From the NCBI GenBank assembly GCA_947650365.1, contig OX393549.1:17612896-17676895 (forward strand): 64,000 nt of DNA. The letters run 5' to 3'. The notes below the pieces were generated by a model. That model had not been told where the DNA came from, searched no databases, and saw nothing but the letters and a program-made list of their open reading frames with translations. The DNA is from Chamaelirium japonicum (taxonomy: Eukaryota; Streptophyta; Magnoliopsida; Liliales; Melanthiaceae). The translations under genes and the position numbers were made by a program. Positions 1 to 64,000 of the stretch are shown piece by piece (position 1 is the stretch's first letter; every line of letters starts with the position of its first letter).

Positions 1-338
1 TGAATTAGAATGGATACATTCGTGCGAATAAATTAGAATGGATCGGACGAATGAATTAGAATGGATCGTACGAATGAATTAGAATGGATCGTACGAATGA
101 ATTAGAATGGATCGTACGAATAAATTAGAATGGATACATTCGTCCGAATGAATTAGAATGGATCATACGAATGAGTAAGAATGGATCGTACGAATGAAAT
201 AGAATAGATTATACGAATGAATTAGAATGGATCCTACGAATGAATTAGAATGGATCGTGTGAAAGAATTAGAACGGATTGTATGAATGAATTAGAATGGA
301 TCGTATGAATGAATTAGAATGGATCGTGCGAATGAATT
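1..338 (+). repeat. Block 1, forward
   Basis: Truncated by the window start. From 121 it carries the cassette GTCCG 28-mer, GAGTAAG, GAAATAG, GTGTGAAAG. It ends at GAATTCGATTCGTATG. Confidence 0.9.
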
Positions 339-1640
339 CGATTCGTATGATCCATTCTAATTCATTAGTACAATCCATTCTAATTCATTCGCACGATCCA
401 TTCTAATTCTTTCACACGATCCATTCTAATCCATTCTTACTCATTCGTATTATCCATTCTAATTCATTCGGACGAATGTATCCATTCTAATTTATTAGTA
501 TGATCCATTCTAATTCATTCGTACGATCCATTCTAATTCATTCGTACGATCCATTCTTACTCATTCGTATGATCCATTCTAATTCATTCGTACGATCCAT
601 TCTAATTCATTCGTACGATCGATTCTAATTCATTCGCACTATCCATTCTAATTTATTCGTACGATCCAGTCTAATTCATTCGTATGATCCATTCTAATTT
701 ATTCGTTCAAATATATCCATTCTAATTCATTCCGTACGATCCATTCTAATTCATTCGTACGATCCATTCTAATTCATTCGTACGAATGTATCCATTCTAA
801 TTCATTCGTACGATCCATTCTAATTCATTCGTACGATCCATTCTAATTCATTCGTAAGATCCATTCTAATTCATTCGTACGATCCATTCTAATTCATTCG
901 TACGATCCATTCTAATTCATTCGCACAAATGTATCCATTCTAGTTCATTCGTACGATCCATTCTAATTCATTCGTACGATCTATTCTAATTCATTCGCAC
1001 GATCCATTCTAATTCATTCGTACGATCAATTCTAATTCATTCGCACGAATGTATCCATTCTAATTCATTCGTACGATCCATTCTAATTCATTCATACGAT
1101 CCATTCTAATTCATTCATACAATCCATTCTAATTCTTTCACACGATCCATTCTAATTCATTCGTAGGATCCATTCTAATTCATTCGTACAATCTATTCTA
1201 TTTCATTCGTACGATCCATTCTTACTCATTCGTATGATCCATTCTAATTCATTCGGACGAATGTATCCACTCTAATTTATTCGTACGATCCATTCTAATT
1301 CATTCGTACGATCCATTCTAATTCATTCGTCCGAACCATTCTAATTCATTCGCACGAATGTATCCATTCTAATTCATTCGTACGATCCATTCTAATTCAT
1401 TCGTAAGATCCATTCTAATTCATTCGTACGATCCATTCTAATTCATTCGTACGATCCATTCGACCGATCCATTCTAATTCATTCGCACGATCTATTCTAA
1501 TTCATTCACTCATTTGATCCATTCTAATTCATTCGTACGATCCATTCTAATTCATTCGTCCGATCCATTCTTACTCATTCGTATGATCAATTCTACATCA
1601 TTCGCACGAATGTATCCATTCTAATTCATTCGTACGATCC
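339..1640 (-). repeat. Block 2, reverse
   Basis: Regular reverse monomers with 28-bp variants about every 100-200 bp. It ends abruptly at GATCC/TGAATTAG. Confidence 0.92.
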
Positions 1641-3390
1641 TGAATTAGAATGGATCGTACGAATGAATTAGAATGGATACCTTTGTGCATTTGAATTAGA
1701 ATGGATCGTACGAATGAATTAGAATGGATACAATCGTGCGAATGAATTAGAAGGGATTGTGCGAATGAATAAGAACAGATCGTGCGAATGAATTGGAATG
1801 GATCGTACGAATGAATTAGAATGGATCGTACGAATGAACTAGATTGGATACATTCATGCGAATGAATTAGAATGGATCGTATGAATGAATTAGAATGGAT
1901 CGTACGAATGAATTAGAATGGATCTTACGAATGAATTAGAATGGATCGTACGAATAAATTAGAATGGATCGTATGAATGGTTTAGAATGGATACATTCAT
2001 GCGAATGAATTAGAATGGATCGGACGAATGAATTAGAATGGATCGTACGAATGAATTAGAATGGATCGAATGAATGAATTTGAATGGTTACATTCATGCG
2101 AATGAATTAGAATGGATCGTACGAATGGATTAGAATGGATCGTACGAATGGATTAGAATGGATACATTCGTGCGAATGAATTAGAATGGATCATACGAAT
2201 GAGTAACAATGGATTGTACGAATGAATTAGAATGGATCGTGCGAATGAATTTGAACGGATCGTACGAATGAATTAGAATGGATCGTGCTAATGAATTAGA
2301 AATGATCGTACGAATGAAATAGAATGGATTGTACGAATGATTTAGAATGGATCGTACAAATGAATTAGAATGGATCGTACGAATGATTTAGAATGGATAC
2401 ATTCGTGCGAATGAATTAGAACTGATCATACGAATGAGTAAGAATGGATCGTACGAATAAAATAGAATGGATTGTACGAATGAATTAGAATGGATTCGTA
2501 CGAATGAATTAGAATGGATACATTCGTGCGAATGAAATAGAATGGATCGTACCAATGAGTAAGAATGGATCGTATCAATGAAATAGAATGGATTGTGCGA
2601 ATGAATTAGAATGGATCGTACGAATGAATTAGAATGGATCGTGTGAAAGAATTAGACTGGATTGTATGAATGAATTAGAATAGATCGTATGAATGAATTA
2701 GAATGGATCGTACGAATGAATTAGAATGGATCATACGAATGAATTAGAATGGATCATACGAATGAATTAGAATGGATACATTCGTGCGAATGAATTAGAA
2801 TGGATACATTCGTGCGAAAGAATTAGAATAGATCGTATGAATGAATTAGAATGGATCCAATGAATGAATTAGAATGGATCGTGCGAATGAATTATAATGG
2901 ATCGTACGAATGAATTAGAATGGATCGTGCTAATGAATTAGAATTGATCGAACGAATGAATTAGCATGGATCGTGCTAATGAATTAGAATGGAACGTACG
3001 AATGAATTAGAATGGATCGTGTGAAAGAATTAGAATAGATTGTATGAATGAATTAGAATGGATCGCACAAATGAATTAGAATGGATCATATGAAAGAATT
3101 AGAATGGATTGTATGAATGAATTAGAATAGATTGTATGAATGAATTAGAATGGATCGTACGAAGGAATTAGAATGGATCGTACGAATGAATTAGAATGGA
3201 TCGTACGAATGAATTAGAATGGATCGTACGAATGAATTAGAATGGATCGTGTGAAAGAATTAGAATGGATCGTACGAATGAATAAGAATGGATCGTGCGA
3301 ATGAATTAGAATGGATCGTACGAATGAATTAGAATGGATTGTGCTAATGAATTAGAATTGATCGAACGAATGAATTAGCATGGATCGTGC
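1641..3390 (+). repeat. Block 3, forward
   Basis: 1.75-2.88 kb resembles 47.66-48.8 kb (TTTAGAATGG at 1981 and 47899). The part after about 2880 is the left end of copy A. It ends at GTGC/ATTCGTACGATCC. Confidence 0.92.
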
Positions 3391-5114
3391 ATTCGTACGA
3401 TCCATTCTAATTCATTTGTAAGATCCATTCTAATTCATTCGTACGATCCATTCTAATTCATTCGTACGATCCATTCTAATTCATTCGCACGAATGTATCC
3501 ATTCTAGTTCATTTGTACGATCCATTCTAATTCATTCGTACGATCCATTCTAATTCATTCATACGATCTATTCTAATTCATTCATACAATCCATTCTAAT
3601 TCTTTCACACGATCCATTCTAATTCATTCGTATGTAACATTCTAATTCATTAGTACGATCCATTCTAATTCATTTGTACGATCCATTCTAATACATTCGT
3701 ACAATCCATTCTATTTCATTCGTACGATCCATTCATTCGTACGATCCATTTTTACTCATTCGTACGATCCATTCAAATTCATTTGTCCGATCCATTCTAA
3801 TTCATTCGCACGAATGTATCCATTCTAATTCATTTGCACGATCCATTCTAATTCATTCCTATGATCTATTCTAATTCATTCGTACGATCCATTCTAATTC
3901 ATTCTAATTCATTCGTACGATCCATTCTACGATCCATTCTAATTCATTCATACGATCCATTCTAATTCATATGCACAAAGGTATCCATTCTAATCCATTC
4001 GTAGGATCCATTCTAATCCATTCGTACGATCCATTCTAATTCATTCGTACGATCCATTCTAATTCATTCGTACGATCCATTCTAATTCCTTCGTACGATC
4101 CATTCTAATTCATTCGTACGATCTATTCTATTTCATTCGTTTGATCCATTCTTACTCATTCGTACGATCTATTCTAATTCATTCATCCGATCCATTCTAA
4201 TTCATTCGTTCGATCAATTCTAATTCATTAGCACGATCTATTCTAATTCATTCGTACGATCCATTCTAATTCATTCGCACGATCCATTCTAATTCATTCA
4301 TAGGATCCATTCTAATTCATTCGTACGATCCATTCTAATTCATTCGCACGATCCATTCTAATTTATTCATACAATCCATTCTAATTCATTCGCACGATCC
4401 ATTCTAATTCACTCATACGATCCATTCTAATACATTCATACGATCCATTCTAATTCATTTGCACGAATATATCCATTCTAATTCATTCGTACAATCCATT
4501 CTAATTCATTCACACGAATGTATCCATTCTAATTCATTCATACGATTCATTCTAATTCATTCGTATGAGCTATTCTAATTCATTCGCATGATCCATTCTA
4601 ATTCATTCGTACGATCCATTGTAATTCATTCATACAATCCATTTAGATTCATTCGCACAAATGTATCCATTCAAATTCATTCGTACGATCCATTCTAATT
4701 CCTTCGTACGATCCATTCTAATTCATTCGTACGAATGTATCCATTCTAATTCATTCGTACGATCCATTCTAATTCATTCGTACGATCCATTCTAATTCAT
4801 TCGTATGATCCATTCTAATTCATTCGTAAGATCCATTCGTAATTCATTCGTACGAATGAATTAGATCCATTCTAATTCATTCGTAATTCATTCGTACAAT
4901 CCATTCTAATTCATTCGTAAGATCCATTCTAATTCATTCGTAAGATCCATTCGTAATTCATTTGATCCATTCAAATTCATTCGTACGATCCATTCTAATT
5001 CCTTCGTATGATCCATTCTAATTCATTCGTACGAATGTATCCATTCTAATTCATTCGTAAGATCCATTTTAATTCATTCGTACGATCCATTCTAATTCAT
5101 TCGTAAGATCCATT
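3391..5114 (-). repeat. Block 4, reverse
   Basis: Includes irregular monomers at 3900-3940 and 4830-4970 (CATTCGTAATTCATT). It ends at CCATTCGTGTGAAAG. Confidence 0.9.
4851..4864 (+). repeat. Micro-inversion island (forward) in a reverse block
   Basis: TACGAATGAATTAG interrupts a reverse run. The flanking monomers are also shortened (CCATTCGTAATTCATTCG). Confidence 0.75.
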
Positions 5115-5210
5115 CGTGTGAAAGAATTAGAATGGATCGTACGAATGAATTAGAATGGATCGTGCTAATGAATTAGAATTGATCGAACGAATGAATTAGG
5201 ATGGATCGTG
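5115..5210 (+). repeat. Block 5, forward, four monomers
   Basis: Short block with GTGTGAAAG and GCTAATG variants. It ends GTGC/ATTCGTACG. The copy B counterpart is two monomers longer. Confidence 0.88.
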
Positions 5211-5766
5211 CATTCGTACGATCCATTCTAATTCATTCGTAAGATCCATTCTAATTCATTTGTACGATCCATTCTAATTCATTCGTACGATCAATTCTAA
5301 TTCATTCGCACGAATGTATCCATTCTAGTTCATTCATACGATCCATTCTAATTCATTCGTACGATACATTCTAATTCATTCATACGATCTATTCTAATTC
5401 ATTCATACAATCCATTCTAATTCTTTCACACGATCCATTCTAATTCATTCGTACGATTCATTCTAATTCATTCGCACAATCCATTCTAATTCATTCGTAC
5501 GATCCATTCTAATTCATTCGTACGATCTATTCTAATTCCTTCGTACGATCCATTCTAATTCATTCGTACGATCCATTCTAATTCATTCGTACGATCCATT
5601 CTAATTCATTCGTACGATCCATTCTAATTCTTTCACACGATCCATTCTAATTCATTCGTACGATCCATTCTAATTCATTCGTGCAATCCATTCTATTTCA
5701 TTCGTACGATCCATTCTTACTCATTCGTACGATCCATTCTAATTCATTCACACGAATGTATCGATT
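5211..5766 (-). repeat. Block 6, reverse
   Basis: Ends at TATCGATTCGTACGAATG, a variant of the CATTCGTACGAATG palindromic switch. Confidence 0.9.
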
Positions 5767-6470
5767 CGTACGAATGAATTAGAATAGATTGTACGAATGA
5801 ATTAGAATGGATCGTACGAATGAATTAGAATGGATCGTACGAAGGAATTAGAATGGATCGTACGAATGAATTAGAATGGATCGTACGAATGAATTAGAAT
5901 AGATCGTACGAATGAATTAGAATGGATCGTACGAAGGAATTAGAATGGATCGTACGAATGAATTAGACTGGATCGTACGAATGAATTTGAATGGATACAT
6001 TTGTGCGAATGAATCTAAATGGATTGTATGAATGAATTACAATGGATCGTACGAATGAATTAGAATGGATCGTACGAATGAATTAGAATAGCTCATACGA
6101 ATGAATTAGAATGAATCGTATGAATGAATTAGAATGGTTACATTCGTGCGAATGAATTAGAATAGATCGTACGAATGAATTAGAATGGATCGTACATATA
6201 AATTAGAATGGATCATGGGAATGAATTAGAATGGATCGTACGAATGAATTAGAATAGATCCACCGAATGAGTTAGAATGGATCATACGAATGAATTAGAA
6301 TGGATTGTACGAATGAATTAGAATGGATTGTGCGAATGAATTAGAATGGATCGTATGAATGAATAAGAATGGATCGTACGAATGAATTAGAATGGATCGT
6401 GCGAATGAATTAGCATGAATCGTACGAATGTATTAGATTGGATCGTACGAATGAATTAGAATGAATCGTA
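5767..6470 (+). repeat. Block 7, forward
   Basis: Carries TCTAAATGG, GAATAGCTCATAC and GATCCACCG markers. It ends at GAATCGTACGATCC. Confidence 0.9.
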
Positions 6471-8280
6471 CGATCCATTCTAATTCAATCGTCCGATCCA
6501 TTCTAATTCATTCGCATGAATGTATCCATTCTAATTCATTCGTACAATCCATTCTATCTCATTCGTACGATCCATTCTTACTCATTCGTATGATCCATTC
6601 TAATTCATTCGTATGATCCATTCTAATTCATTCGTACGATCCAATCTAATTCATTCGTACGATCCATTCTAATTCATTCGCACGATCCATTCTAATTCAT
6701 TCATACGATCCATTCTAATTCATTCCTACAATCCATTCTAATTCATTCGCCCGATCCATTCTAATTCATTCATATGATCCATTCTATTCGAATGGATCAT
6801 GCGATCCATTCGAATTCATTCGAACGATCCATTCTAATTCATTCATACGATCCATTCTAATTCATTCATATAATGTATTCTAATTCTTTCGCACGATCCA
6901 TTCTAATTCATTCATACGATCCATTCTAATTCACTCATACGATCCATTCTAATTCACTCATACGATCTATTCTAATACATTCATACGATCCATTCTAATT
7001 CATTTGCACAAATATATCCATTCTAATTCATTCGTAAGATCCATTGTAATTCATTTGTACGATCCATTCTAATTCATTCGCACGATCCATTCTAATTCAT
7101 TCGTACGATCCATTCTAATTCATTCATACGATCCATTCTAATTCATTCGTACGATCTATTCTAATTCATTCGCACAAATGTATCCATTCTAATTCATTCG
7201 TACGATCCATTCTAATTCATTCGCACGATTCATTCTAATTCATTCGTACGATCCATTCTAATTCTTTCACACGATCCATTCTAATTCATTCGTACGATCC
7301 ATTCTAATTCATTCGCACGATCCATTCTAATTCATTCGTACGATCTATTCTAATTCATTCATACGATCCATTCTAATTCATTCGTACGATCCATTCTAAT
7401 TCATTCGCACAAATGTATCCATTCTAATTCATTCGTACGATCCATTCTAATTCATTCGCACGATCCATTATAATTCATTCATACAATCCATTCTAATTCT
7501 TTCACATGATCTATTCTAATTCATTCGTAGGATCCATTCTAATTCATTCGTACAATCTATTCTATTTCATTCGTACGATCCATTCTTACTCATTCGTATG
7601 ATCCATTCTACTTCATTCGGACGAATGTATCCATTCTAATTTATTCGTACGATCCATTCTAATTCATTCGTACGATCCATTCTAATTCATTCATATGATC
7701 CATTCTAATTCATTCGTATGATCTATTCTTATTCATTCGCATGATCCAGTCTAATTGATTCGCACGATCCATTCTAATTCATTCGCACGAATGTATCCAT
7801 TCTAATTCATTCATACGATCCATTCTAATTCATTAATATGATCCATTCTAATTCATTCGTACGATCCATTCGAATTCATTCGTAGGATCCATTCTAATTC
7901 ATTCGTACAATCTATTCTATTTCATTCGTACGATCCATTCTTACTCATTCGTATGATCCATTCTAATTCATTCGGACGAATGTATCCATTCTAATTTATT
8001 CGTACGATCCATTCTAATTCATTCGTACGATCCATTCTAATTCATTCGTAAGATCCATTCTAATTCATTCGTACGATCCATTCTAATTGATTCGTATGAT
8101 CCATTCTAATTCATTCATACGATCTATTCTAATTCATTCATACAATCCATTCTAATTCTTTCACACGATCCATTCTAATTCATTCGTACGATCCATTCTA
8201 ATTCATTCGTACAATCCATTCTAATTCTTTCACACGATCCATTCTAATTCATTCGTAGGATCCATTCTAATTCATTCGTA
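6471..8280 (-). repeat. Block 8, reverse
   Basis: Contains landmark 1 and two copies of the GTAGG/CTATTTC/CTTACTC cassette (7530-7650, 7880-8010). It ends at GTACAATGAGTAAG. Confidence 0.92.
6784..6822. repeat. Palindromic landmark CTATTCGAATGG (1 of 8)
   Basis: A short forward piece sits inside a reverse block: CTATTCGAATGGATCATGCG followed by ATCCATTCGAATTCATTCG. It contains TTCGAA and GAATTC palindromes. Confidence 0.85.
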
Positions 8281-9467
8281 CAATGAGTAAGAATGGATCG
8301 TACGAATGAAATAGAATGGATTGTACGAATGATTTAGAATGGATACATTCGTGCGAATGAATTAGAATGGATTGTGCGAATGAATTAGAATGGATCGTAC
8401 GAATGAATTAGAATGGATCGTACGAATGAATTAGAATGGATCGTGTGAAAGAATTAGAATGGATTGTATGAATGAATTAGAATAGATCGTATGAATGAAT
8501 TAGAATGGATCGTACGAATGAATTAGAATGGATCGTACGAATGAATTAGAATGGATCGTACGAATGAATTAGAATGGATCTTACGAATGAATTAGAATGG
8601 ATCGTGTGAAAGAATTAGAATGGATCGTACGAATGAATTAGAATGGATCGTGCGAATGAATTAGAATGGATCGTACGAATGAATTAGAATGGATCGTGCT
8701 AATGAATTAGAATAGATCGTACCAATGAGTTAGAATGGATCGTACGAATGAAATAGAATGGATTGTGCGAATGAATTAGAATGGATCGTACGAATGAATT
8801 AGAATGGATCGTGTGAAAGAATTAGAATGGATTGTATGAATGAATTAGAATAGATCGTATGAATGAATTAGAATGGATCGTACGAATGAATTAGAATGGA
8901 TCGTACGAATGAATTAGAATGGATACATTCGTGCGAATGAATTAGAATGGATCGGACGAATGAATTAGAATGGATCGTACGAATGAATTAGAATGGATCA
9001 AATGAATGAATTAGAATGGATCGTACGAATGAATTAGAATGCATCGTACGAAAGAATTAGAATGGATATATTCGTGCGAATGAATTAGAATGGATCGTAT
9101 GAATGAATTAGAATGGATCGTATGAGTGAATTAGAACGGATAGTACGAATGAAGTAGAATGGATCGTATGAATGAATTAGAATGGATACATTCGTGCGAA
9201 TGAATTAGAATGGATCGTATGAATGAATTAGAATAGATTGTGCGAATGAATTAGAATGGATCGTATGAATGAATTAGAATGGATACATTCATGCGAATAA
9301 ATTAGAATGGATTGTATGAATGAATTAGAATGGATCGTACGAATGAATTAAAATGGATCGTACGAATGAATTAGAATAGATTGCGCGAATGAATTAGAAT
9401 GGATCGTGCGAATGAAATAGAATGGATACAAATGAATTAGAATGGATCATACGAATGAATTAGAATG
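8281..9467 (+). repeat. Block 9, forward
   Basis: Starts with GAGTAAG and GAAATAG monomers. It ends at TAGAATGACGATCC. Confidence 0.9.
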
Positions 9468-9637
9468 ACGATCCATTCTTACTCATTCGTATGATCCATT
9501 CTAATTTATTCGCACGAATGTATCTATTCTAATTCATTCGTACGTCTAATTCATTCGTACGGTCCATTCTAATTCATTCGCACAATCCATTCTATTTCAT
9601 TCGTACGATCCATTCTTACTCATTTGTATGATCCATT
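9468..9637 (-). repeat. Block 10, reverse, short
   Basis: Seven or so monomers, including a truncated one (TCGTACGTCTAATTC). It ends at the palindromic joint GATCCATTATGGATAC. Confidence 0.88.
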
Positions 9638-10209
9638 ATGGATACATTCGTGCGAATGAATTAGAATGGATCATACGAATGAGTAAGAATGGATCGTACG
9701 AATGAAATAGAATGGATTGTGCGAATGAATTAGAATGGATCATACGAATGAATTAGAATGGATCGTGTGAAAGAATTAGAATGGATTGTATGAATGAATT
9801 AGAATAGATCGTATGAATGAATTAGAATGGATCATACGAATGAATTAAAATGGATCGTACGAATGAATTAGAATGGATCGTACGAATGAATTAAAATGGA
9901 TCGTACGAATGAATTAGAATGGATACATTCGTGCGAATGAATTAGAATGGATACATTCGTGCGAAAGAATTAGAATAGATCGTATGAATGAATTAGAATG
10001 GATCCTATGAATGAATTAGAATGGATCGTGCGAATGAATTAGAATGGATCGTACGAATGAATTAGAATGGATCGTGCTAATGAATTAGAATTGATCGAAC
10101 GAATGAATTAGCATGGATCGTGCTAATAAATTAGAATGGAACGTACGAATGAATTAGAATGGATCGTGTGAAAGAATTAGAATGGATTGTATGAATGAAT
10201 TAGAATGAA
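9638..10209 (+). repeat. Block 11, forward
   Basis: Ends at GAATGAATTCGTACGATCC, a switch centred on GAATTC. Confidence 0.9.
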
Positions 10210-10239
10210 TTCGTACGATCCATTCGAATTCATTCGCAC

Positions 10240-10470
10240 GATCCATTCTAATTCATTCATACAATCCATTCTAATTCTTTCACACGATCAATTCTAATTC
10301 ATTCGTAGGATCCATTCTAATTCATTCGTACAATCTATTCTATTTCATTCGTGCGATCCATTCTAATTCATTCATACAATCCATTCTAATTCTTTCACAC
10401 GATCAATTCTAATTCATTCGTAGGATCCATTCTAATTCATTCGTACAATCTATTCTATTTCATTCGTGCG
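10240..10470 (-). repeat. Local 115-bp tandem duplication in copy A
   Basis: A run of five monomers carrying TCTTTCACACGATCAATTC (10276 and again 10391), GTAGGATCC and CTATTTCATTCGTGCG is repeated with a period of exactly 115 bp (5 x 23). Confidence 0.82.
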
Positions 10471-10986
10471 ATCCATTCTTACTTATTCGTATGATCCATT
10501 CTAATTCATTCGGACGAATGTATCCATTCTAATTTATTCGTACGATCCATTCTAATTCATTCGTATGATCCATTCTAATTCATTCGTACGATCCATTCTT
10601 ACTCATTCGTATGATCCATTCTAATTCATTCGTACGATCCATTCTAATTCATTCGTACGATCGATTCTAATTCATTCGCACTATCCATTCTAATTCATTC
10701 GTACGATCCATTCTAATTCATTCGTATGATCCATTGTAATTTATTCGTTCAAATATATCCATTCTAATTCATTCGTACGATCCATACTAATTCATTCGCA
10801 CGATCCATTCTAATTCATTCGCACGAATGTATCCATTCTAATTCATTTGCACGATCCATTCTAATTCATTCCTATGATCTATTCTAATTCATTCGTACGA
10901 TCCATTCTAATCCATTCGTACGATCCATTCTACGATCCATTCTAATTCATTCGTATATTCCATTCTAATTCATTAGCACGATCCAT

Positions 10987-11010
10987 GCTAATGAATTAGA
11001 ATGGATCGTA
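10987..11010 (+). repeat. One-monomer forward island in a reverse block
   Basis: A single GCTAATGAATTAGAATGG monomer in forward orientation, entered at ATCCATGCTAATG and left at the palindrome ATCGTACGAT. Confidence 0.78.
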
Positions 11011-11228
11011 CGATCCAATCTAATTCATTCATACGATCCATTCTTACTCACTCGTATGATCCATTCTAATTCAATCGTACGATCCATTTAATTCATTCGT
11101 ACGATCCATTCTAATTCCTTCGTACGATCCATTCTAATTCATTCGTACGATCCATTCTAATTCATTCGTACGATCCATTCTAATTCTTTCGTACGATCCA
11201 TTCTAATTCATTCGTACAATCTATTCTT

Positions 11229-12630
11229 ACGAATGAATTAGAATGGATCTTACGAATGAATTAGAATGGATCGTACGAATGAATTAGAATGGATCGTATG
11301 AATGAATTAGAATGGATACATTCGTGCGAATGAATTAGAATGGATCGGACGAATGAATTAGAATGGATCGTACGAATGAATTAGAATGGATCGTACGAAT
11401 GGATTAGAATGGATCATACGAATGAATTAGAATGGATCATGCGAATGAATTAGAATGGATCGAACGAATGAATTAGAATGGATCGAACGAATGAGTAAGA
11501 ATGGATCGTACGAATGAATTAGAATGGATTAGAATGGATCGTACGAATGAAATAGAATAGATTGTACGAATGAATTAGAATGGATTCGTACGAATGAATT
11601 AGAATGGATACATTCGTGCGAATGAATTAGAATGGATCGTACCATTGAGTAAGAATGGATCGTACGAATGAATTAGAATGGATCGTACAAAGGAATTAGA
11701 ATGGATCGTACGAATGAATTAGAATGGATCGTACGATTGAATTGGAATGGATCATACGAATGAGTAAGAATGGATCGTATGAATGAATTAGATTGGATCG
11801 TACGATCCATTCTAATTCATTAGCATGGATCGTGCTAATGAATTAGAATGGAATATACGAATAAATTAGAATGGATCGTAGAATGGATCGTACGAATGAA
11901 TTTGAATGGATACATTTGTGCGAATGAATCTAAATGGATTGTATGAATGAATTAGAATGGATCGTACGAATGAATTAGAATGGATCGTATGAATGAACTA
12001 GAATGGATACATTCGTGCAAATGAATTAGAATGGATCGTACGAAAGAATTAGAATGGATATATTCGTGCAAATGAATTAGAATGGATCGTACGAATGAAT
12101 TAGAATGGATCATACGAATTAATTAGAATGGATCTTACGAATGAATTAGAATGGATCGTACGAATGAATTAGAATGGATCGTGCGAATGAATTAGAATGG
12201 ATCGTACGAATGAATTAGAATAGATCGTACGAATGAATTAGAATGGATCGTACGAATGGATTAGATTGGATACATTCGAGCGAATGAATTAGAATGAATC
12301 GTACGAATGAATTAGAATGGATCATATGAATGAGTAAGAATGGATCGTACGAATGAATTAGAATGGATCGTACGAATGAATTAGAATGGATCGTACGAAT
12401 AAATTTGAATGGATACATTCGTCCGAATGAATTAGAATGGATCATACGAATGAGTAAGAATGGATCGTACGAATGAAATAGAATAGATCGTACGAATGAA
12501 TTAGAATGGAATATACGAATGAATTAGAATGGATCGTACGAATGAATTAGAATGGATCGTATGAATGAATTAGAATGGATCGTACGAATGAATTAGAGTG
12601 GATCGTGTGAATGAATTCGAATGGATCGAA
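11229..12630 (+). repeat. Block 13, forward
   Basis: Interrupted by the reverse island at 11804. It ends GGATCGAACGATCC. Its bottom strand holds a 76-codon open frame that I regard as an artefact. Confidence 0.9.
11804..11823 (-). repeat. One-monomer reverse island in a forward block
   Basis: CGATCCATTCTAATTCATTAG sits between forward monomers: entered at ATCGTACGAT, left at TTAGCATGGATC. Confidence 0.78.
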
Positions 12631-13798
12631 CGATCCATTCTAATTCATTCATACAATCCATTCTAATTCATTCGCACGAATGTATCCATTCTAATCCATT
12701 CGTACGATCCATTCTAATCCATTCGTACGAGCCATTCTAATTTATTCGCACAAATGTATCCATTCTAATTCATTCGTACGATCCATTCTAATTCATTCGT
12801 ACGATCCATTCTAATTCATTCGTACGATCCATTCTAATTCATTCACACAATCCATTCTATTTCATTCGTACGATCCATTCTTACTCATTGGTACGATCCA
12901 TTCTAATTCATTTGCACGAATGTATCCATTCTAATTCATTCGTACGAATCCATTCTAATTCATTCGTACAATCCATTCTATTTTATTCGTACGATCCATT
13001 CTTACTCATTCGTATGATCCATTTTAATTCATTCGCACGAATGTATCCATTCTAAATCATTCATACGATCCATTCTAATTCATTCGTACGATCCATTCTA
13101 AATGATTCGTACAATCCATTCTATTTCATTCGTACGATCAATTCTACATCATTCTAATTCATTCTATTTCATTCGTACGATCCGTTCTAATTCACTCATA
13201 CGATCCATTCTAATTCATTCATACGATCCATTCTAATTCATTTGCACGAATATATCCATTCTAATTCATTCGTACGATCAATTCTAATTCATTCGCACGA
13301 ATGTATCTATTCTACTTCATTCGTACGATCCATTCTAATTCATTCGTACGATCCATTCTAATTCATTCATACAATCCATTCTAATTCTTTCACACGATCG
13401 ATTCTAATTCATTCGTAGGATCCATTCTAATTCATTCGTACAATCTATTCTATTTCATTCGTACGACCCATTCTAATTCATTCGCACGAATGTATCCATT
13501 CTAATTCATTCATACGAATCCATTCTAATTCATTCGTACAATCCATTCTATTTCATTCGTACGATCCATTCTTACTCATTCGTACGATCCATTCTAATTC
13601 ATTCGTACGATCCATTCTAATTCATTCGCACGATCCATTCTTACTCATTCGTATGATCCATTCTAATTTATTCGCACGAATGTATCCATTCTAATTCATT
13701 CGTACGTCTAATTCATTCTTACGGTCCATTCTAATTCATTCGCACAATCCATTCTATTTTATTCGTACGATCCATTCTTAGTCATTCGTATGATCCAT
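12631..13798 (-). repeat. Block 14, reverse
   Basis: Carries CTTACTC and CTATTTC variants. It ends GATCCATTATGGATAC. Confidence 0.9.
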
Positions 13799-15448
13799 TA
13801 TGGATACATTCGTGCGAATGAATTAGAATGGATCATACGAATGAGTAAGAATGGATCGTACGAATGAAATAAAATGGATTGTGCGAATGAATTAGAATGG
13901 ATCGTACGAATGAATTAGAATGGATCGTGTGAAAGAATTAGAATGGATTGTATGAATGAATTAGAATAGATCGTATGAATGAATTAGAATGGATCGTACG
14001 AATGAATTAGAATGGATACATTCGCGAATGAATTAGAATGGATCGTACAAATGAATTAGAATGGATCGTACGAATGAATTAGAATGGATCTTACGAATGA
14101 ATTAGAATGGATCGTACGAATGAATTAGAATGGATCGTACGAATGAATTAGAATGGATACATTTGTGCGAATGAATTAGAATGGATCGTACGAATGAATT
14201 AGAATGGATCGTATGAATGAATTAGAATGGATCGTACGAATGAATTAGAATGGATTGTACGAAGGAATTAGAATGGATCGTACGAATGAATTAGAATGGA
14301 TATATTCGTGCAAATGAATTAGAATGGATCATATGAATATATTAGAATGGATCGTATGAGTGAATTAGAATGGATCGTGCGAATGAATTAGAATGGTTTG
14401 TATGAATGAATTAGAATGGATCGTACGAATGAAATAGAATGGATCGTACGAATGTATTAGAATGGATCGTACGAATGAACAAGAATGGATACATTCGTGC
14501 GAATGAATTAGAATAGATACGAATGAATTAGAATGGATCGTGCGAATGAATTAGAATGGATCGTATGAATGAACTAGAATGGATACATTCGTGCGAATGA
14601 ATTAGAATGGATCGTACGAATGAATTAGAATGGATCGTACGAATGAATTAGAATGGATCGTACGAATAAATTAGAATGGATACATTCGTGCGAATGAATT
14701 AGAATGGATCGGACGAATGAATTAGAATGGATCGTACGAATGAATTAGAATGGATCGTACGAATGAACTAGAATGGATATATTCGTGCGAATGAATTAGA
14801 ATGGATCGTACGAATGAATTAGAATGGATCGTACGAATGAATTAGAATGGATCTTATGAATGAATTAGAATGGATCGTACGAATGAATTAGAATGGATCG
14901 TACGAATGAATTAGAATGAATTAGAATGGATCAGACGAATGAATTAGAATGGATCTAACGAATGAATTAGAATGGATCTTACGAATGGATTAGAATGGAT
15001 ACATTCGTGCGAATGAATTAGAATGGATTGGACGAATGAATTGGACGAATGAATTAGAATGGATCGTACGAATGAATTAGAATGGATCAAATGAATGAAT
15101 TAGAATGGTTACATTCATGCGAATGAATTAGAACGCATCGTACGAATGGATTAGAATGGATCGTACGAATGGATTAGAATGGATATATTCGAGCGAATGA
15201 ATTAGAATGGATCGTACGAATAAAATTAGAATGGATCGTACGAATGAATTAGAATAGATCGTACAAATGAATTAGAATGGATCGTACGAAGGAATTAGAA
15301 TGGATCGTGTGAAAGAATTAGAATGGATCGTACGAATGAATTAGAATGGATCGTGCGAATGAATTAGAATGGATCGTACGAATGAATTAGAATGGATCGT
15401 GCTAATGAATTAGAATTGATCGAACGAATGAATTAGCATGGATCGTGC
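13799..15448 (+). repeat. Block 15, forward
   Basis: Has a 26-bp variant (GATACATTCGCG) near 14020 and a shortened monomer at about 14913. It ends GTGC/ATTCGTACGATCC. Confidence 0.9.
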
Positions 15449-15795
15449 ATTCGTACGATCCATTCTAATTCATTCGTAAGATCCATTCAAATTCATTCGT
15501 ACGATCCATTCTAATTCATTCGTACGATCCATTCTAATTCATTCGCACGAGTGTATCTATTCTAGTTCATTCGTACGATCCATTCTAATTCATTCGTTCG
15601 ATCCATTCTAATTCATTTATACGATCTATTCTAATTCATTCATACAATCCATTCTAATTCTTTCACACGATCCATTCTAATTCATTCGTACGATCCATTC
15701 TAATTCATTTGCACAATCCATTCTATTTCATTCGTACGATCCATTCTTACTCATTCGTATGATCCATTCTAATTCATTTGCACGAATGTATCCAT
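15449..15795 (-). repeat. Block 16, reverse
   Basis: Ends at TATCCATAATGGATC, another ATCCA/TGGAT joint. Confidence 0.9.
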
Positions 15796-16732
15796 AATGG
15801 ATCATACGAATGAGTAAGAATGGATCGTACGAATGAAATAGAATGGATTGTGCGAATGAATTACAATGGACCATACGAATGAATTAGAATGGATACATTC
15901 GTGCGAATGAATTAGAATGGATTGGACGAATGAATTAGAATGGATCGTACGAATGAATTAGAATGGATCGTACAAATGAATTAGAATGGATCGTACGAAT
16001 AAATTAGAATGGATACATTCGTCCGAATGAATTAGAATGGATCATTCGAATGAGTAAGAATGGATCGTACAAATGAAATAGAATAGATTGTACGAATGAA
16101 TTAGAATGGATCGTGCGAATGAATTAGAATGGATCGTACGAATGAATTAGAATGGATCGTACGAATGAATTAGAATGGATCGTGCAAATGAATTAGAATG
16201 GATCATATTAATGAATTAGAATGGATCGTACGAATGAATTAGAATGGATACATTCGTGCGAATGAATTAGAATGGATCGTGCGAATCCATTAGACTGGAT
16301 CGTGCGAATGAATAAGAATGGATCATACGAATGAATTAGAATGGATCGTACGAATTAATTAGAATGGATACATTCGTGCGAATGAATTAGAATGGATTGT
16401 ATGAATGAATTAGAATGGATCGTACGAATGAATTAGAATGGATCATGCGAATTAATTAGAATGGATCATACGAATGAATTAGAATGGATCGTACGAATGA
16501 ATTAGAATGGATCGTACGAATGAACTAGAATGGATCGTACGAATGAACTAGAATGGATACATTCGTGCGAATGAATTAGAATGGATCGTACGAATGAATT
16601 AGAATGGATCGTACGAATGAATTAGAATGGATCTTACGAATGAATTAGAATGGATCTAACGAATGAATTAGAATGGATCGTACGAATGAATTAGAATGGA
16701 TCGTACGAATGAATTTGAATGGATCGCACGAA
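15796..16732 (+). repeat. Block 17, forward
   Basis: Ends at GATCGCACGAAAGTAACC. The copy B counterpart reads GCACGAATGTAACC. Confidence 0.9.
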
Positions 16733-17889
16733 AGTAACCATTCTAATTCATTCATACGATTCATTCTAATTCATTCGTATGAGCTATTCTAATTCATTCG
16801 TACGATCCATTCTAATTCATTCGTACGATCCATTGTAATTCATTCATACAATCCATTTAGATTCATTCGCACAAATGTATCCATTCAAATTCATTCGTAC
16901 GATCCAGTCCAATTCATTCGTACGATCCATTCTAATTCATTCGCACGAATATATCCAGTCTAATTCTTTCGTACGATGCATTCTAATTCATTCGTACGAT
17001 CCATTCTAATTCATTCGTACGATCCATTCTAATTCATTCGCACGAATGTATCCATTCTAATTCATTCGTACAATCCATTCTATTTCGTTCGTACGATCCA
17101 TTCTTACTCATTCGTATGATCCATTCTAATTCATTCGTATGATCCATTCTAATTCATTCGTACGATCCATTCTAATTTATTCGTATGATCCATTCTAATT
17201 CATTCGCACAATCCATTTTAATTCATTCATACGATCCATTCTAATTCATTCATACGATCCATTCTAATTCATTCCTACAATCTATTCTAATTCATTCGCC
17301 CGATCCATTCTAATTCATTCATACGATCCATTCTATTCGAATGGATCATGCGATCCATTCGAATTCATTCGCACGATCCATTCTAATTCATTCATACGAT
17401 CCATTCTAATTCATTCATACAATGCATTCTAATTCTTTCACACGATCAATTCTAATTCATTCGTACGATCCATTCTAATTCATTCGTACAATCCATTCTA
17501 TTTCATTTGTACGATCCATTCTTACTCATTCGTATGATCCATTCTAATTCATTCGTACGATCCATTCTAATTCATTCGTATGATCCATTCTAATTAATTC
17601 GTATGATCCATTCTAATTCATTCGTACAATCCATTCTATTTCATTTGTACGATCCATTCTTACTCATTCGTATGATCCATTCTAATTCATTCGTACGATC
17701 CATTCTAATTCATTTGTACAATCCATTCTAATTCATTCGTACAATCCATTCTATTTCATTCGTACGATCCATTCTTACTCATTCGTATGATCCATTCTAA
17801 TTCATTCGCACGAATGTATCCATTCTAATTCATTCAGACAATCCATTCTAATTCATTCCGTACGATCCATTCTAATTCATTCGTACGAT
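16733..17889 (-). repeat. Block 18, reverse
   Basis: Contains landmark 2 and repeated CTATTTC/CTTACTC pairs (17490-17790). It ends at TCGTACGATCGTACGAATG. Confidence 0.9.
17333..17371. repeat. Palindromic landmark CTATTCGAATGG (2 of 8)
   Basis: Same landmark inside the reverse block 16733-17889. Confidence 0.85.
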
Positions 17890-18796
17890 CGTACGAATGA
17901 ATTAGAATGGATCGTACGAATAAATTAGAATAGATTGTGCGAATGAATTAGAATGGATCGTACGAATTAATTAGAATGGATCGTACGAATGATTTAGAAT
18001 GGATTATACGAATGAGTAAGAATGGATCGTACGAATGAATTAGAATGAATCGTGCGAATTAATTAGAATGGATCGTACGAATAAATTAGAATGGATACAT
18101 TCGTCCGAATGAATTAGAATGGATCATACGAATGAGTAAGAATGGATCGTACGAATGAAATAGAATAGGTTATACGAATGAATTAGAATGGATCCTACGA
18201 ATGAATTAGAATAGATCGTGTGAAAGAATTAGAATGGATTGTATGAATGAATTAGAATGGATCGTATGAATGAATTAGAATGGATCGTGCGAATGAATTC
18301 GAATGGATCGTACGAATGAGTAAGAATGGATCGTACGAATGAAATAGAATGGATCGTACGAATGAATTAGAATGGATCGTACGAATAAATTAGTATGGAT
18401 ACATTCGTCCGAATGAATTAGAATGGATCATACGAATGAGTAAGAATGGATCGTACGAATGAAATAGAATAGATTGTACGAATTAATTAGAATGGATCCT
18501 ACGAATGAATTAGAATGGATCGTCTGAAAGAATTAGAATGGATTGTATGAATGAATTAGAATGGATTGTATGAATGAATTAGAATGGATCCTATGAGTGA
18601 ATTAGAATGGATCGTGCGAATGAATTAGAATGGATCGTACGAATGAATTAGAATGGATCGTGCTAATGAATTAGAATTGATCGAACGAATGAATTAGCAT
18701 GGATCGTGCTAATGAATTAGAATGGTACGTACGAATGAATTAGAATGGATCGTGTGAAAGAATTAGAATGGATTGTATGAATGAATTAGAATGAAT
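17890..18796 (+). repeat. Block 19, forward
   Basis: Two tandem cassettes (18068-18285 and 18365-18560) with the GTCCG 28-mer, GAGTAAG, GAAATAG, GTGTGAAAG or GTCTGAAAG. It ends at GAATTCGTACGATCC. Confidence 0.9.
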
Positions 18797-19860
18797 TCGT
18801 ACGATCCATTCGAATTCATTCGCACGATCCATTCTAATTCATTCATACGATCCATTCTAATTCATTCATACAATCCATTCTAATTCTTTCACACAATCCA
18901 TTCTAATTCATTCGTAAGATCCATTCTAATTCATTCGTACAATCTATTCTTTTTCATTCGTACGATCCATTCTTACTCATTCGTATGATCCATTCTAATT
19001 CATTCGGACGAATGTATCCATTCTAATTTATTTGTACGATCCATTCTAATTCATTCGTACGATCCATTCTAATTCATTCGTACGATCCATTCTAATTCAT
19101 TCGTCCGATCCATTCTAATTCATTCGTACGAATGTATCCATTCTAATTCATTCGTACGATCCATTCTAATTCATTCGTACGATCCATTCAAATTCATTCG
19201 TAAGATCCATTCTAATTCATTCGTATGATCCATTCTAATTCATTCGTACGATCCATTCTAATTCATTCGCACGAATGTATCCATTCTAGTTCATTCATAT
19301 GATCCATTCTAATTCATTCATACAATCCATTCTAATTCATTCGCACGAATGTATCAATTCTAATTCATTCGTACGATCAGTTCTAATTCATTCACAAAAT
19401 CTATTCTTATTCGTTCATACGATCCATTCTAATTCATTCACACGAATATATCTATTCTAATTCATTCATACGATCCATTCTAATTCGTTCGTACGATCCA
19501 TTCTAATTTGTTCGTACGATCCATTCTAATTCATTCGTATGATCCATTCTAATTCATTCCTACGATCTATTCTAATTCATTCGCTCGAATATATCCATTC
19601 TAATTCATTCGTTCGATTCATTCTAATTTATTCGCACGATCCATTCTAATTCATTCGTACGATCCATTCTAATTCATTCGCACGATCCATTCTAATTCAT
19701 TCGTACGATCAATTCTAATTCATTCATACGATCCATTCTAATTCATTCGTACGATCCATTCTAATTCATTCATACGATCCATTCTAATTCATTCGTACGA
19801 TCCATTCTAATTCACTCATACGATCCATTCTAATACATTCATACGATCCATTCTAATTAA
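18797..19860 (-). repeat. Block 20, reverse
   Basis: Holds the reverse form of the same cassette at 18870-19030. It ends CTAATTAATTTGTGC. Copy B has 143 extra bp here (five 23-mers plus one 28-mer). Confidence 0.9.
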
Positions 19861-20262
19861 TTTGTGCAAATGAATCTAAATGGATTGTATGAATGAATTA
19901 CAATGGATCGTATGAATGAATTAGAATGGATCGTACGAATGAATTAGAATAGCTCATACGAATGAATTAGAATGAATCGTATGAATGAATTAGAATGGTT
20001 ACATTCGTGCGAATGAATTAGAATAGACCGTACGAATGAATTAGAATGGATCGTATGAATAAATTAGAATGGATCATGGGAATGAATTAGAATGGATTGT
20101 ACGAATGAATTAGAATGGATTGTGCGAATGAATTAGATTGGATCGTATGAATGAATAAGAATGGATCGTACGAATGAATTAGAATGGATCGTGCGAATGA
20201 ATTAGCATGAATCGTACGAATGTATTAGAATGGATCGTACGAATGAATTAGAATGAATCGTA
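19861..20262 (+). repeat. Block 21, forward
   Basis: Paralogous to block 7 (TCTAAATGG, TAGCTCATAC) but lacks the GATCCACCG monomers. It ends GAATCGTACGATCC. Confidence 0.9.
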
Positions 20263-21184
20263 CGATCCATTCTAATTCATTCGCATGAATGTATCCATTC
20301 TAATTCATTCGTACAATCCATTCTATCTCATTCGTACGATCCATTCTTACTCATTCGTATGATCCATTCTAATTCATTCGTATGATCCATTCTAAATCAT
20401 TCGTACGATCCAATCTAATTCATTCGTACGATCCATTCTAATTCATTCGCACGATCCATTCTAATTCATTCATACGATCCATTCTAATTCATTCATACGA
20501 TCCATTCTAATTCATTCCTACAATCCATTCTAATTCATTCGCCCGATCCATTCTAATTCATTCATATGATCCATTCTATTCGAATGGATCATGCGATCCA
20601 TTCGAATTCATTCGAACGATCCATTCTAATTCATTCATACGATCCATTCTAATTCATTCATATAATGCATTCTAATTCTTTCGCACGATCCATTCTAATT
20701 CATTCATACGATCCATTCTAATTCACTCATATGATCCATTCTAATTCACTCATACGATCCATTCTAATACATTCATACGATCCATTCTAATTCATTTGCA
20801 CGAATATATCCATTCTAATTCATTCGTACGATCCATTCTAATTCCTTCGTACGATCCATTCTAATTCATTCGTACGATCTACTCTAATTCATTCGTACGA
20901 TCCATTCTAATTCATTCGTATGATCCATTCTAATTCCTTCGTACGATCCATTCTAATTCATTCGTACGATCCATTCTAATTCATTCATACAATCCATTCC
21001 AATTCTTTCACACGATCCATTCTAATTCATTCGTACGATCCATTCGTACTATCCGTTCTAATTCACTCATACGATCCATTCTAATTCATTCATACGATCC
21101 ATTCTAATTCATTTGCACAAAGGTATCCATTCTAATTCATTCGTACGATCCATTCTAATTCATTCACACGAATGTATCCATTCG
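20263..21184 (-). repeat. Block 22, reverse
   Basis: Contains landmark 3. It ends ATCCATTCGTACGAATG. Confidence 0.9.
20576..20614. repeat. Palindromic landmark CTATTCGAATGG (3 of 8)
   Basis: Same landmark inside the reverse block 20263-21184. It is a paralogue of the one at 6784 within copy A. Confidence 0.85.
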
Positions 21185-40017: not shown

Positions 40018-40962
40018 CGATCCATTCTAATTCAATCGTCCGATCCATTCTAATTCATTCGCATGAATGTATCCATTCTAATTCATTCGTACAATCCATT
40101 CTATCTCATTCGTACGATCCATTCTTACTCATTCGTAAGATCCATTCTAATTCATTCGTATGATCCATTCTAATTCATTCGTACGATCCAATCTAATTCA
40201 TTCGTACGATCCATTCTAATTCATTCGCACGATCCATTCTAATTCGTTCATACGATCTATTCTAATTCATTCATACGATCCATTCTAATTCATTCCTACA
40301 ATCCATTCTAATTCATTCGCCCGATCCATTCTAATTCATTCATATGATCCATTCTATTCGAATGGATCATGCGATCCATTCGAATTCATTCGAACGATCC
40401 ATTCTAATTCATTCATACGATCCATTCTAATTCATTCATATAATGCATTCTAATTCTTTCGCACGATCCATTCTAATTCATTCATACGATCCATTCTAAT
40501 TCACTCATATGATCCATTCTAATTCACTCATACGATCCATTCTAATACATTCATACGATCCATTCTAATTCATTTGCACGAATATATCCATTCTAATTCA
40601 TTCGTACGATCCATTCTAATTCCTTCGTACGATCCATTCTAATTCATTCGTACGATCTACTCTAATTCATTCGTACGATCCATTCTAATTCATTCGTATG
40701 ATCCATTCTAATTCCTTCGTACGATCCATTCTAATTCATTCGTACGATCCATTCTAATTCATTCATACAATCCATTCCAATTCTTTCACACGATCCATTC
40801 TAATTCATTCGTACGATCCATTCGTACTATCCGTTCTAATTCACTCATACGATCCATTCTAATTCATTCATACGATCCATTCTAATTCATTTGCACAAAG
40901 GTATCCATTCTAATTCATTCGTACGATCCATTCTAATTCATTCACACGAATGTATCCATTCG
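40018..40962 (-). repeat. Block 42, reverse
   Basis: Counterpart of block 22 plus one monomer (AATCGTCCG). Contains landmark 6. Confidence 0.9.
40354..40392. repeat. Palindromic landmark CTATTCGAATGG (6 of 8)
   Basis: Copy B counterpart of 20576, offset 19,778 bp. Confidence 0.85.
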
Positions 40963-42601: not shown

Positions 42602-44259
42602 ATTCGTACGATCCATTCTAATTCATTTGTAAGATCCATTCTAATTCATTCGTACAATCCATTCTAATTCATTCGTATGATCCATTCTAATTCATTCGCA
42701 CGAATGTATCCATTCTAGTTCATTCGTACGATCCATTCTAATTCATTCGTACGATCCATTCAAATTCATTCATACGATCTATTCTAATTCATTCATACAA
42801 TCCATTCTAATTCTTTCACACGATCCATTCTAATTTATTCGTATGATCCATTCTAATTCATTAGTACGATCCATTCTAATTCATTTGTACAATCCATTCT
42901 AATTCATTCGTACAATCCATTCTATTTCATTCGTACGATCCATTCATTCGTATGATCCATTCTTACTCATTTGTACGATCCATTCTAATTCATTCGTCCG
43001 ATCCATTCTAATTCATTCGCACGAAAGTATCCATTCTAATTCATTTGCACGATCCATTCTAATTCATTCCTATGATCTATTCTAATTCATTCGTACGATC
43101 CATTCTAATTCAGTCTAATTCATTCGTACGATCCATACTACGATCCATTCTAATTCATTCGTAAGATCCATTCTAATTCCTGCGTACGATCCATTCTAAT
43201 TCATTCGTACGATCTATTCTATTTCATTCGTACGATCCATTCTTACTCATTCGTACGATCCATTCTAATTCATTTGTCCGATCCATTCTAATTCATTCGC
43301 ACGAATGTATCCATTCTAATTCATTCGTTCGATCAATTCTAATTCATTAGCACGATCCATTCTAATTCATTTGTACGATCTATTCTAATTCATTCGCACG
43401 ATCCATTCTAATTCATTCATAGGATCCATTCTAATTAATTCGTACGATCCATTCTAATTCATTCGCACGATCCATTCTAATTCATTCATACAATCCATTC
43501 TAATTCATTCGCACGATCCATTCTAATTCACTCATACGATCCATTCTAATACATTCATACGATCCATTCTAATTCATTTGGACGAATATATCCATTCTAA
43601 TTCATTCGTACGATCCATTCTAATTCATTCGCACGAATGTATCCATTCTAATTCATTCATACGATTCATTCTAATTCATTCGTATGAGCTATTCTAATTC
43701 ATTCGTACGATCCATTCTAATTCATTCGTACGATCCATTGTAATTCATTCATACAATCCATTTAGATTCATTCGCACAAATGTATCCATTCAAATTCATT
43801 CGTACGATCCATTCTAATTCCTTCGTACGATCTATTCTAATTCATTCGTACGAATGTATCCACTCTAATTCATTCGTACGATCCATTCTAATTCATTCGT
43901 ACGATCCATTCTAATTCATTCGTAAGATCCATTCTAATTCATTCGTACGATCCATTCTAATTCATTCGTATGATCCATTCTAATTCATTCGCATGAATGT
44001 ATCCTTTCTAGTTCATTCGTACGATCCATTCTAATTCATTCGTACGATCCATTCTAATTCATTTGCACGATCCATTCTAATTCATTTGTACGATCAATTC
44101 TAATTCATTCGCACGAATGTATCCATTCTAATTCATTCGTACGATCCATTCTAATTCATTCATACGATCCATTCTAATTCATTTATATAATCCATTCTAA
44201 TTCTTTCACACGATCCATTCTAATTCATTCGTAGGATCCATTCTAATTCATTCGTACAA
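42602..44259 (-). repeat. Block 44, reverse
   Basis: Follows block 24 until about 43.98 kb, then switches to other monomers (CATGAATGTATCCTTTC). It ends GTACAATGAGTAAG as block 8 does. Confidence 0.88.
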
Positions 44260-57660: not shown

Positions 57661-58124
57661 CATTCGTATGATCCATTCTAATTCATTCGGACGAATGTAT
57701 CCATTCTAATTTATTCGTACGATCCATTCTAATTCATTCGTACGATCCATTCTAATTAATTCGTACGATCCATTCTTACTCATTCGTATGATCCATACTA
57801 ATTCATTCGTACGATCCATTCTAATTCATTCGCACGAATGTATCCATTCCATTCGTACGATCCATTCTAATTCACTAGCACGATCTATTCTATTTCATTC
57901 GTATGTTCCATTCTAATTCATTCGCACGATCCATTCTAATTCATTCATCGGATCCATTCTAATTCATTCATACGATCTATTCTAATTCTTTTGCACGAAT
58001 GTATCCATTCTAATTCATTCGCAAGAATGTATCCATTCTAATTCATTCGTACGATCCATTCTAATTCTTTCACACGATCCATTCTAATTCATTCGTAGGA
58101 TCCATTCTAATTTATTCGTACCAT
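57661..58124 (-). repeat. Block 60, reverse
   Basis: Ends at GTACCATATGTAAG, a variant of the GTACAATGAGTAAG joint. Confidence 0.88.
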
Positions 58125-62950: not shown

Positions 62951-63615
62951 TCTAATTCATTCATACAATCCATTCTAATTCATTCGCACGAATGTATCCA
63001 TTCTAATTAATTCGTACGATCCATTCTAATTCATTCGTATGATCTATTCTTATTCATTTGCACGATCCAGTCTAATTGATTCGCACTATCCATTCTAATT
63101 CATTCGTATGATCCATTCTAATTCATTCGCACGATCCATTCTAATTCATTCGTACGATCCATTCTAATTCATTCATACGATCCATTCTAATTCATTCGTA
63201 CGATCCATTCTAATTCATTCATACGATCCATTGTAATTCATTCGTACGATCCATTCTAATTCATTCGCACGATCCATTCATTCACACGATCCATTCTAAT
63301 TCATTTGTATCCATTCTATTTCCTTCGCACGATCCATTCTAATTCATTCGCGCAATCTATTCTAATTCATTCGTACGATCCATTCTAATTCATTCGTACG
63401 ATCCATTCTAATTCATTCATACAATCCATTCTAATTTATTCGCACGAATGTATCCATTCTAATTCTTTTGCACGATCCATTCTAATTCATTCCTATGATC
63501 TATTCTAATTCATTCGTACGATCCATTCTAATTCATTCTAATTCATTCGTACAATCCATTATACGATCCATTCTAATTCATTCGTATATTCCATTCTAAT
63601 TCATTAGCACGATCG
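61661..63615 (-). repeat. Block 66, reverse
   Basis: Begins with the reverse cassette (61740-61890). From about 62.95 kb it repeats block 64. An 80-codon open frame at 62504-62746 is judged an artefact. Confidence 0.9.
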
Positions 63616-64000
63616 TATGTACGAATGAATTAGAATGGATACATTCGTGCGAATGAATTAGAATGGATCGTACGAATGAATTAGAATGGATCGTGCGAAT
63701 GAATTAGAATGGATCATACGAATGAATTAGAATGGATCATACGAATGAACTAGAATGGATACATTCGTGTGAATGAATTAGAATGGATCGTACGAATGAA
63801 TTAGAATGGATCGTACGAATGAATTAGAATGGATCTTACGAATGAATTAGAATGGATCGTATGAATGGTTTAGAATGGATTGTGCGAATGAATAAGAACA
63901 AATCGTGCGAATGAATTAGAATGGATCGTACGAATGAATTAGAATGGATCATACGAATGAATTAGAATGGATCGTACGAATTAATTAGAATGGATACATT
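62951..64000. repeat. 2.69-kb tandem duplication, second copy, cut by the window edge
   Basis: It repeats 60260-61332 nearly base for base, including the strand switch CACGATCGTATGTACG and the AAGAACA variant. It runs off the window, so a longer run of 2.69-kb repeats could follow. Confidence 0.78.
63616..64000 (+). repeat. Block 67, forward, cut by the window edge
   Basis: Repeats the start of block 65, with one monomer fewer. Confidence 0.9.

Follow-up and report, generated by a model that had tools for sequence, protein, structure and literature searches.

A satellite array that reverses its strand again and again raises the question of whether each reversal is an inversion of its own or whether a few reversals have been copied many times. 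The stretch analysed here (the window, 64,000 bp, positions 1-64000, carrying satellite on both strands) lies at C1:17,612,896-17,676,895 in the 1.519-Gb assembly of Chamaelirium japonicum, called Chionographis japonica (C. japonica) in the papers cited below. The window is very probably part of a megabase-sized, CENH3-binding holocentromere unit of C. japonica, made of Chio1 and Chio2, in which strand switches arise rarely and are mostly inherited; CENH3 binding and the kinetochore function of Chio are taken from the literature (PMC10264360).

Identity and genomic setting of the array

TRF rows with a 23-bp unit span nearly the entire window. Monomers and strands were called with a profile HMM that models either orientation and allows for a 5-bp insert; it places 2,694 monomers in the window at 93.5% identity to the consensus, compared with 69.6% for a base-shuffled window under the same two-strand model, which bears out the description of the 64 kb as a 23-bp satellite in the sequence-only reading that preceded this work. 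The 5-bp insert, which gives a 28-bp form, is found in 341 of the 2,694 monomers, and the 28-bp spacing was seen 141 times on one strand and 145 times on the other. The 28-bp variant differs from the 23-bp monomer by the 5 bp and one substitution, and TRF reports a run of this Chio2-type monomer at 57975-58049 on the minus strand. The monomer consensus contains TTCGTACGA, and a dimer of the monomer forms a predicted hairpin (-5.1 kcal/mol, z -4.37), as in Chio, in which the dyad gives a hairpin between neighbouring monomers.

These features are those of a published family. Kuo et al. (2023) studied C. japonica (2n = 24) with a primary assembly of 1,526 Mb and a set of 12 scaffolds that total 1090.73 Mb with an N50 of 81.11 Mb. 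They reported Chio1 (23 bp) and Chio2 (28 bp, with a 5-bp indel and one substitution) as CENH3-enriched satellite variants that together form cluster CL1 and 16.11% of the genome; 100 centromere units of 0.24-4.46 Mb were described, and the Chio arrays mix forward and reverse orientation (PMC10264360). A paper from 2025 describes Chio as being of "frequently alternating orientation", in contrast to the Chama satellite found in the sister genus. It regards the repeats as uniform from one C. japonica unit to another and gives the 9-mer TTCGTACGA as common to Chio and Chama (PMC12722358). The window satellite is Chio1/Chio2, an identification made by monomer lengths, the indel, TTCGTACGA, the dyad and the layout. 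In the passages of these papers considered here, the Chio1/Chio2 arrays of C. japonica have the same 23- and 28-bp monomers, the same 5-bp indel plus substitution, dyad symmetry, mixed orientation and several spaced units per chromosome, with no difference in kind. The suggestion that no named family combines this monomer with this layout is therefore withdrawn: forward and reverse arrays of Chio1/Chio2 are in print (passages of PMC10264360 and PMC12722358), and these passages hold just the kind of prior description of an inverted-block family that the sequence-only reading had named as evidence against itself. The family, its layout and its centromere role have already been published, so that there is no new satellite family here and the finding as first posed is known.

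The satellite runs past both ends of the window. All 12 stretches sampled from C1:17.41-17.89 Mb carry it on both strands, two of them together with a non-satellite part, and both strands of the satellite are present in 28 of 28 fetched loci. One flanking non-satellite part is a Ty3/gypsy retrotransposon, in which gag, reverse transcriptase, RNase H and integrase domains were identified, and the non-satellite stretches of neighbouring loci look like separate insertions. An origin of the strand blocks from a transposon (a fold-back element), considered from the layout, appears unlikely, since 23-bp TRF rows over nearly the whole window and a 93.5% match of its bases to the consensus leave little space for element ends or coding sequence. 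The window stretch 1641-3388 gave no match in the plasmid collection that was searched.

The spread of the satellite on C1 can also be read from 30-mers that cover particular switch junctions, whose types are defined below. Among the matches listed, exact copies of the (3,13,1) junction 30-mer run from 17.116 to 18.350 Mb around the window, and its clusters on C1 lie at 1.41-3.33, 10.35-10.76 and 17.12-18.35 Mb and from 27.40 Mb onwards, separated by gaps of 6.4 to 9.0 Mb. The 30-mers of types (5,22,2), (5,16,0) and (9,3,0) lie, among the matches listed, in the first two C1 clusters, at about 1.4-3.3 and 10.3-10.8 Mb. Chromosome C1 of the C. japonica assembly, again by the matches listed, thus carries several spaced Chio units.

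Strand blocks and their tandem duplication

The HMM finds exactly 66 switches at switch priors from 1e-5 to 1e-14, with 30,254 bp on the plus strand and 33,746 bp on the minus strand, in agreement with the 66 flips and the near balance of about 30 and 34 kb first read from the sequence. Looser priors give 74 (2e-4), 90 (1e-3) and 94 (1e-2) switches and the tightest (1e-20) gives 64, a range of 64-94 that varies with the shortest block accepted. The strand totals stay at 30.2-30.4 kb plus and 33.6-33.8 kb minus across these priors, and the median block length is 572-928 bp over the settings tried. If monomer orientation were independent and random, about 1,344 flips would be expected, compared with 74, so the strand blocks are real.

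Self-comparison reveals a tandem duplication of 19.5 kb between about 3.0 and 44.2 kb of the window. Copy 1 (3001-22433) and copy 2 (22434-42211), whose limits are approximate, stand head to tail, and a partial and more diverged third copy starts at 42212-44257. Compared in 49 pieces of 500 bp with starts from 1 to 24,001, copies 1 and 2 have a median identity of 99.4%. Copy 1 holds 24 switches at the 74-switch setting, each of which is matched by a switch of identical type 19.4-19.8 kb further on, and a 25th pair reaches into the partial third copy. Segments 19914-24493 and 39697-44257 align at 92.4%. When pieces from 18,800 onwards are compared with the sequence one unit ahead, the overall median is 85% and the identity is high only to about 26 kb, hence the third copy is partial. 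To the left of the window, a block-length pattern of 5.8 kb is repeated four times (loci L012-L014).

The contrast first drawn between this array and satellites that run head to tail thus holds in part. The alternation is real, but in the window it falls within the 19.5-kb unit, whose copies follow one another head to tail, and, left of the window, within the 5.8-kb unit with its four repeats. The 19.5-kb duplication, together with the recurring junctions described next, means that the 66 switches are not independent events, and an origin from 66 independent inversions was rejected.

Recurring junctions across units and chromosomes

Each switch was typed by the monomer phases that it joins, a scheme with 420 possible types. 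Clustering of the junctions by edit distance gave 48 clusters, and the phase types were preferred because this clustering merges some of them. The sample consisted of the window and 25 non-overlapping loci (26 sequences, 270,896 bp). Locus L001, which overlaps the window, was left out throughout, only the satellite part of L009, L011 and L027 was used, and L002 and L006, which lie inside L024 and L023, were dropped from the counts of switches, types and flanks, whereas the edit-distance clusters, the microhomology tests and the count of window types absent elsewhere used the locus set that includes them. The sample holds 332 switches (1.226 per kb), of which 8 are unplaced, one of their sides being within the 5-bp insert. 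The remaining 324 represent 45 types, and the 16 types present in at least two loci account for 294 of them.

In the window, the plus-to-minus type (3,13,1) occurs at 3390 (feature 3380-3400) and also at 5211, 15448, 22823, 24667, 34991, 42601 and 44583. The minus-to-plus type (5,22,2) is found at 5768 (5758-5778) and at 5116, 21184, 24526, 25224, 40962, 45186, 46764 and 49970, and a second minus-to-plus type, (5,16,0), at 9638 (9628-9648), 13800, 15796, 29140, 33279 and 35339. Type (9,3,0), again plus to minus, is placed at 10208 (10198-10218), 18794, 29710, 38337, 54097, 57661 and 61657. The plus-to-minus type (21,16,8) falls at the 8-bp palindrome TCGTACGA and occurs 14 times in the window, at 6470 (6460-6480) and, for example, at 11010, 11802, 20262, 25926, 40017, 45865 and 50672.

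The same types recur far from the window. A type known from the window is seen at 84 of the 100 switches placed in 13 distant loci; the share expected by chance is 5% if types are equally likely and 8% if joins are. The distant loci were chosen by their match to a 319-bp window stretch, which favours sharing, and the share was hence also taken without the switches beside the fetch query, giving 55 of 69. Six of the 13 (L003, L004, L005, L007, L008 and L024) are on small unplaced contigs and could be allelic copies; the seven placed on chromosomes (other units of C1, C2, C3, C7 and C8) have a window type at 62 of 75 switches. In the locus set that includes the nested L002 and L006, 10 of the 21 window types are absent from the distant loci. 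The satellite sequence, its alternation, the head-to-tail duplication of 19.5 kb and the reuse of junctions across units and chromosomes (in samples from C1, C2, C3, C7 and C8) are direct observations.

Genome-wide searches with junction 30-mers, in which no more than one base was allowed to differ, found 4,401 copies of (3,13,1), 14,747 of (5,22,2), 10,761 of (5,16,0) and 21,097 of (9,3,0), each near-equal on both strands. As controls, two joins built artificially from consensus monomers and unseen in the samples gave 295 and 38 copies; the second was added because the first is close to a variant that is itself slightly expanded. By extrapolation (1.226 per kb over 16.11% of 1.519 Gb), the assembly would contain about 300,000 switches, of which the four junction patterns (51,006 copies) would make up about one sixth.

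The polarity of the junctions on C1 was counted by hand from exact copies among the matches listed, to which all of the following counts refer. The (9,3,0) junction is plus in 62 of 62 copies from 1.369 to 3.000 Mb, mixed from 3.010 to 3.333 Mb (11 plus, 20 minus) and at 10.33-10.36 Mb has 3 plus and 4 minus copies. The (5,16,0) junction is plus in 43 of 43 copies from 1.766 to 3.039 Mb and mixed on either side. For (3,13,1), 28 of 29 copies at 10.35-10.76 Mb are plus, as are all 13 copies between 17.575 and 17.938 Mb, the stretch that surrounds the window, while the entire 17-Mb cluster has 18 plus and 20 minus and the 1.4-3.3 Mb cluster 7 plus and 19 minus. These counts indicate that the alternation belongs to a scale below about 1 kb and that larger units keep one polarity over hundreds of kilobases, although not everywhere.

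Origin of the switches and their meaning

It is likely that the alternation of Chio descends from a few dozen founding junctions, some with more than 10,000 copies, that were traded among units on different chromosomes; amplification of a small number of rare inversions, followed by their spread among the centromere units, is the probable course. Switches would arise rarely, by inversion assisted by microhomology or palindromes or by fold-back template switching in the dyad-rich monomer, and would then ride passively in larger segments through tandem duplication. The excess of microhomology at the junction types, given below, favours such a formation, although it is modest. Copying between centromere units, which are clustered in chromocentres, may transfer them, a step proposed by Kuo et al., who name interlocus gene conversion, inversions and circular DNA as routes of Chio spread (PMC10264360). 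With rare switches and passive carriage, the alternating pattern would be mostly inherited and not made anew at each switch.

The alternative that the same junctions re-arise repeatedly at a few break-prone palindromes of the monomer is unlikely. Two junction types lie at the 8-bp palindrome and one at GATC, and microhomology exceeds that of random joins, with a mean of 1.27 versus 0.77 bp over the 45 types (P 0.014) and of 1.94 bp over the 16 multi-locus types (P 0.0035). This excess is modest (split by direction, P 0.055 and 0.061), and microhomology is 0-2 bp at four of the five most frequent types. The 30-mers of (3,13,1), (5,16,0) and (9,3,0) include off-consensus bases, yet they have thousands of copies, and all 24 switches of copy 1 reappear in copy 2. 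The flanks also bear on this alternative. For junctions of one type at different places, flanks taken 20-220 bp to either side were compared with a best-of-two phase-matched control, and the median identity was 0.890 versus 0.844 for the control. Of 487 same-type pairs, 44.8% exceed the control 99th percentile of 0.899 and 55% do not; with a control that is not best-of-two, 45% of 480 pairs exceed its 99th percentile of 0.889. By median, seven of 12 types share flanks beyond the control 99th percentile, contrary to repeated formation, and nine of 12 are above the control median. Three of the 12 fall below it, as repeated formation would predict, most clearly the plus-to-minus type at the 8-bp palindrome (0.738), followed by (2,18,0) (0.801, three pairs) and (6,0,2) (0.841), and two further types are barely above it (0.846 and 0.848). 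Low flank identity in these types could reflect more than one origin per type or blocks too short for the comparison.

A second alternative, which appears quite improbable, is that selection keeps the inversion sites because hairpins or cruciforms at the switches recruit centromere proteins, and that the junctions are conserved for this reason. Of 836 same-type pairs, 270 are collinear, with an identity of 90% or more across 300 bp per side, and their identity falls smoothly from 0.978 at 0-15 bp to 0.893 at 250-290 bp from the junction. The consensus fit at 15-60 bp from junctions is 0.914, below the 0.935 of the sampled arrays overall. Sequence that is most alike next to the junction despite a poorer consensus fit could point to selection, as could the predicted hairpin of the monomer dimer; however, copying alone, with breakpoints at random, produces the same smooth decay, high identity beside the junction with a worse consensus fit reflects shared private variants, as expected of copies, and the dyad belongs to the monomer itself and is therefore present in block interiors too. 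In the satellites of the beetle Tribolium madens, conserved inversion sites have been interpreted as possibly functional (PMC13081366); plain copying suffices for the present data, so function as in that interpretation is not needed. Additionally, the arrays of Chamaelirium luteum are consistently oriented and still bind CENH3 (PMC12722358).

That the inversions are false, produced by a repeat beyond the resolution of the assembler, is extremely improbable: near-identical 19.5-kb copies are difficult for any assembler, but median blocks of 572-928 bp lie well within the mean lengths of 14-26 kb of the C. japonica HiFi libraries, so that many switches fall within a single read, Kuo et al. themselves report forward and reverse arrays (PMC10264360), and the same junctions are found on several contigs.

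Descent by copying from a few founding junctions can be set beside the closest systems. Chama of Chamaelirium luteum is likewise a centromere satellite, in the sister genus, with TTCGTACGA and higher-order repeats, and differs in its 60-bp monomer and consistently oriented arrays (PMC12722358). The macro-dyad arrays of TmSat1 and TmSat2 in T. madens, compared here by layout only, also change orientation inside megabase satellite regions and have a few conserved types of inversion site with thousands of occurrences; they differ in their monomers of 225 and 704 bp, in a centromere function that is presumed, and in consisting predominantly of two subarrays each, in contrast to the many sub-kilobase blocks of Chio (passages of PMC13081366). 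Junction reuse, junction counts and the 19.5-kb unit were not found in the main-text passages of PMC10264360 and PMC12722358 considered; the word "junction" is absent from both main texts, and higher-order repeats are named in those passages only for cluster CL73, without details, and for Chama.

Strand-switch counts in a satellite overstate how many inversions took place, as the 19.5-kb duplication and the recurring junctions of Chio make plain. If the descent from a few founding junctions is true, each junction is a countable lineage tag, and Chio is a plant counterpart of the conserved inversion sites of Tribolium that offers a direct test of the proposed exchange among centromere units. 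Copied switch junctions form a set of markers whose copies can be counted and followed across units, and such markers would allow the spread of Chio along the chromosomes that has been suggested in print, by gene conversion or the reinsertion of circles, to be tested from sequence alone.

Where the satellite breaks off

At two of the sampled genome loci the satellite breaks off at GC-rich sequence. The satellite stops sharply at the border of GC-rich non-satellite sequence at L011:9412-10000, and at L027:8566-10000 (C1:134.37 Mb) the array meets a GC-rich stretch that contains short tandem repeats and stops there. The initial ~70 bases of the latter stretch are found again ~1.3 kb further on, as in a terminal repeat.

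A retrotransposon within the array

The satellite array is broken by a Ty3/gypsy retrotransposon at C1:17,415,221-17,422,895 (L009:2326-10000). This element features gag, RT, two RNase H-type and integrase domains, and its two long reading frames are both open. Having a dual RNase H, it may belong to the Tat lineage.

Higher-order units

Left of the window, at C1:17,582,896-17,612,895 (L012-L014), a 5.8-kb unit that contains several strand switches is present in four head-to-tail copies. The unit is seen in the block lengths, and a search with a 30-mer across a strand-switch junction determined a spacing of 5,780-5,872 bp. Two other searches of this kind revealed recurring junction spacings of 27,760-27,783 bp at C1:2.79-2.83 Mb, pointing to a further higher-order unit of a different length.
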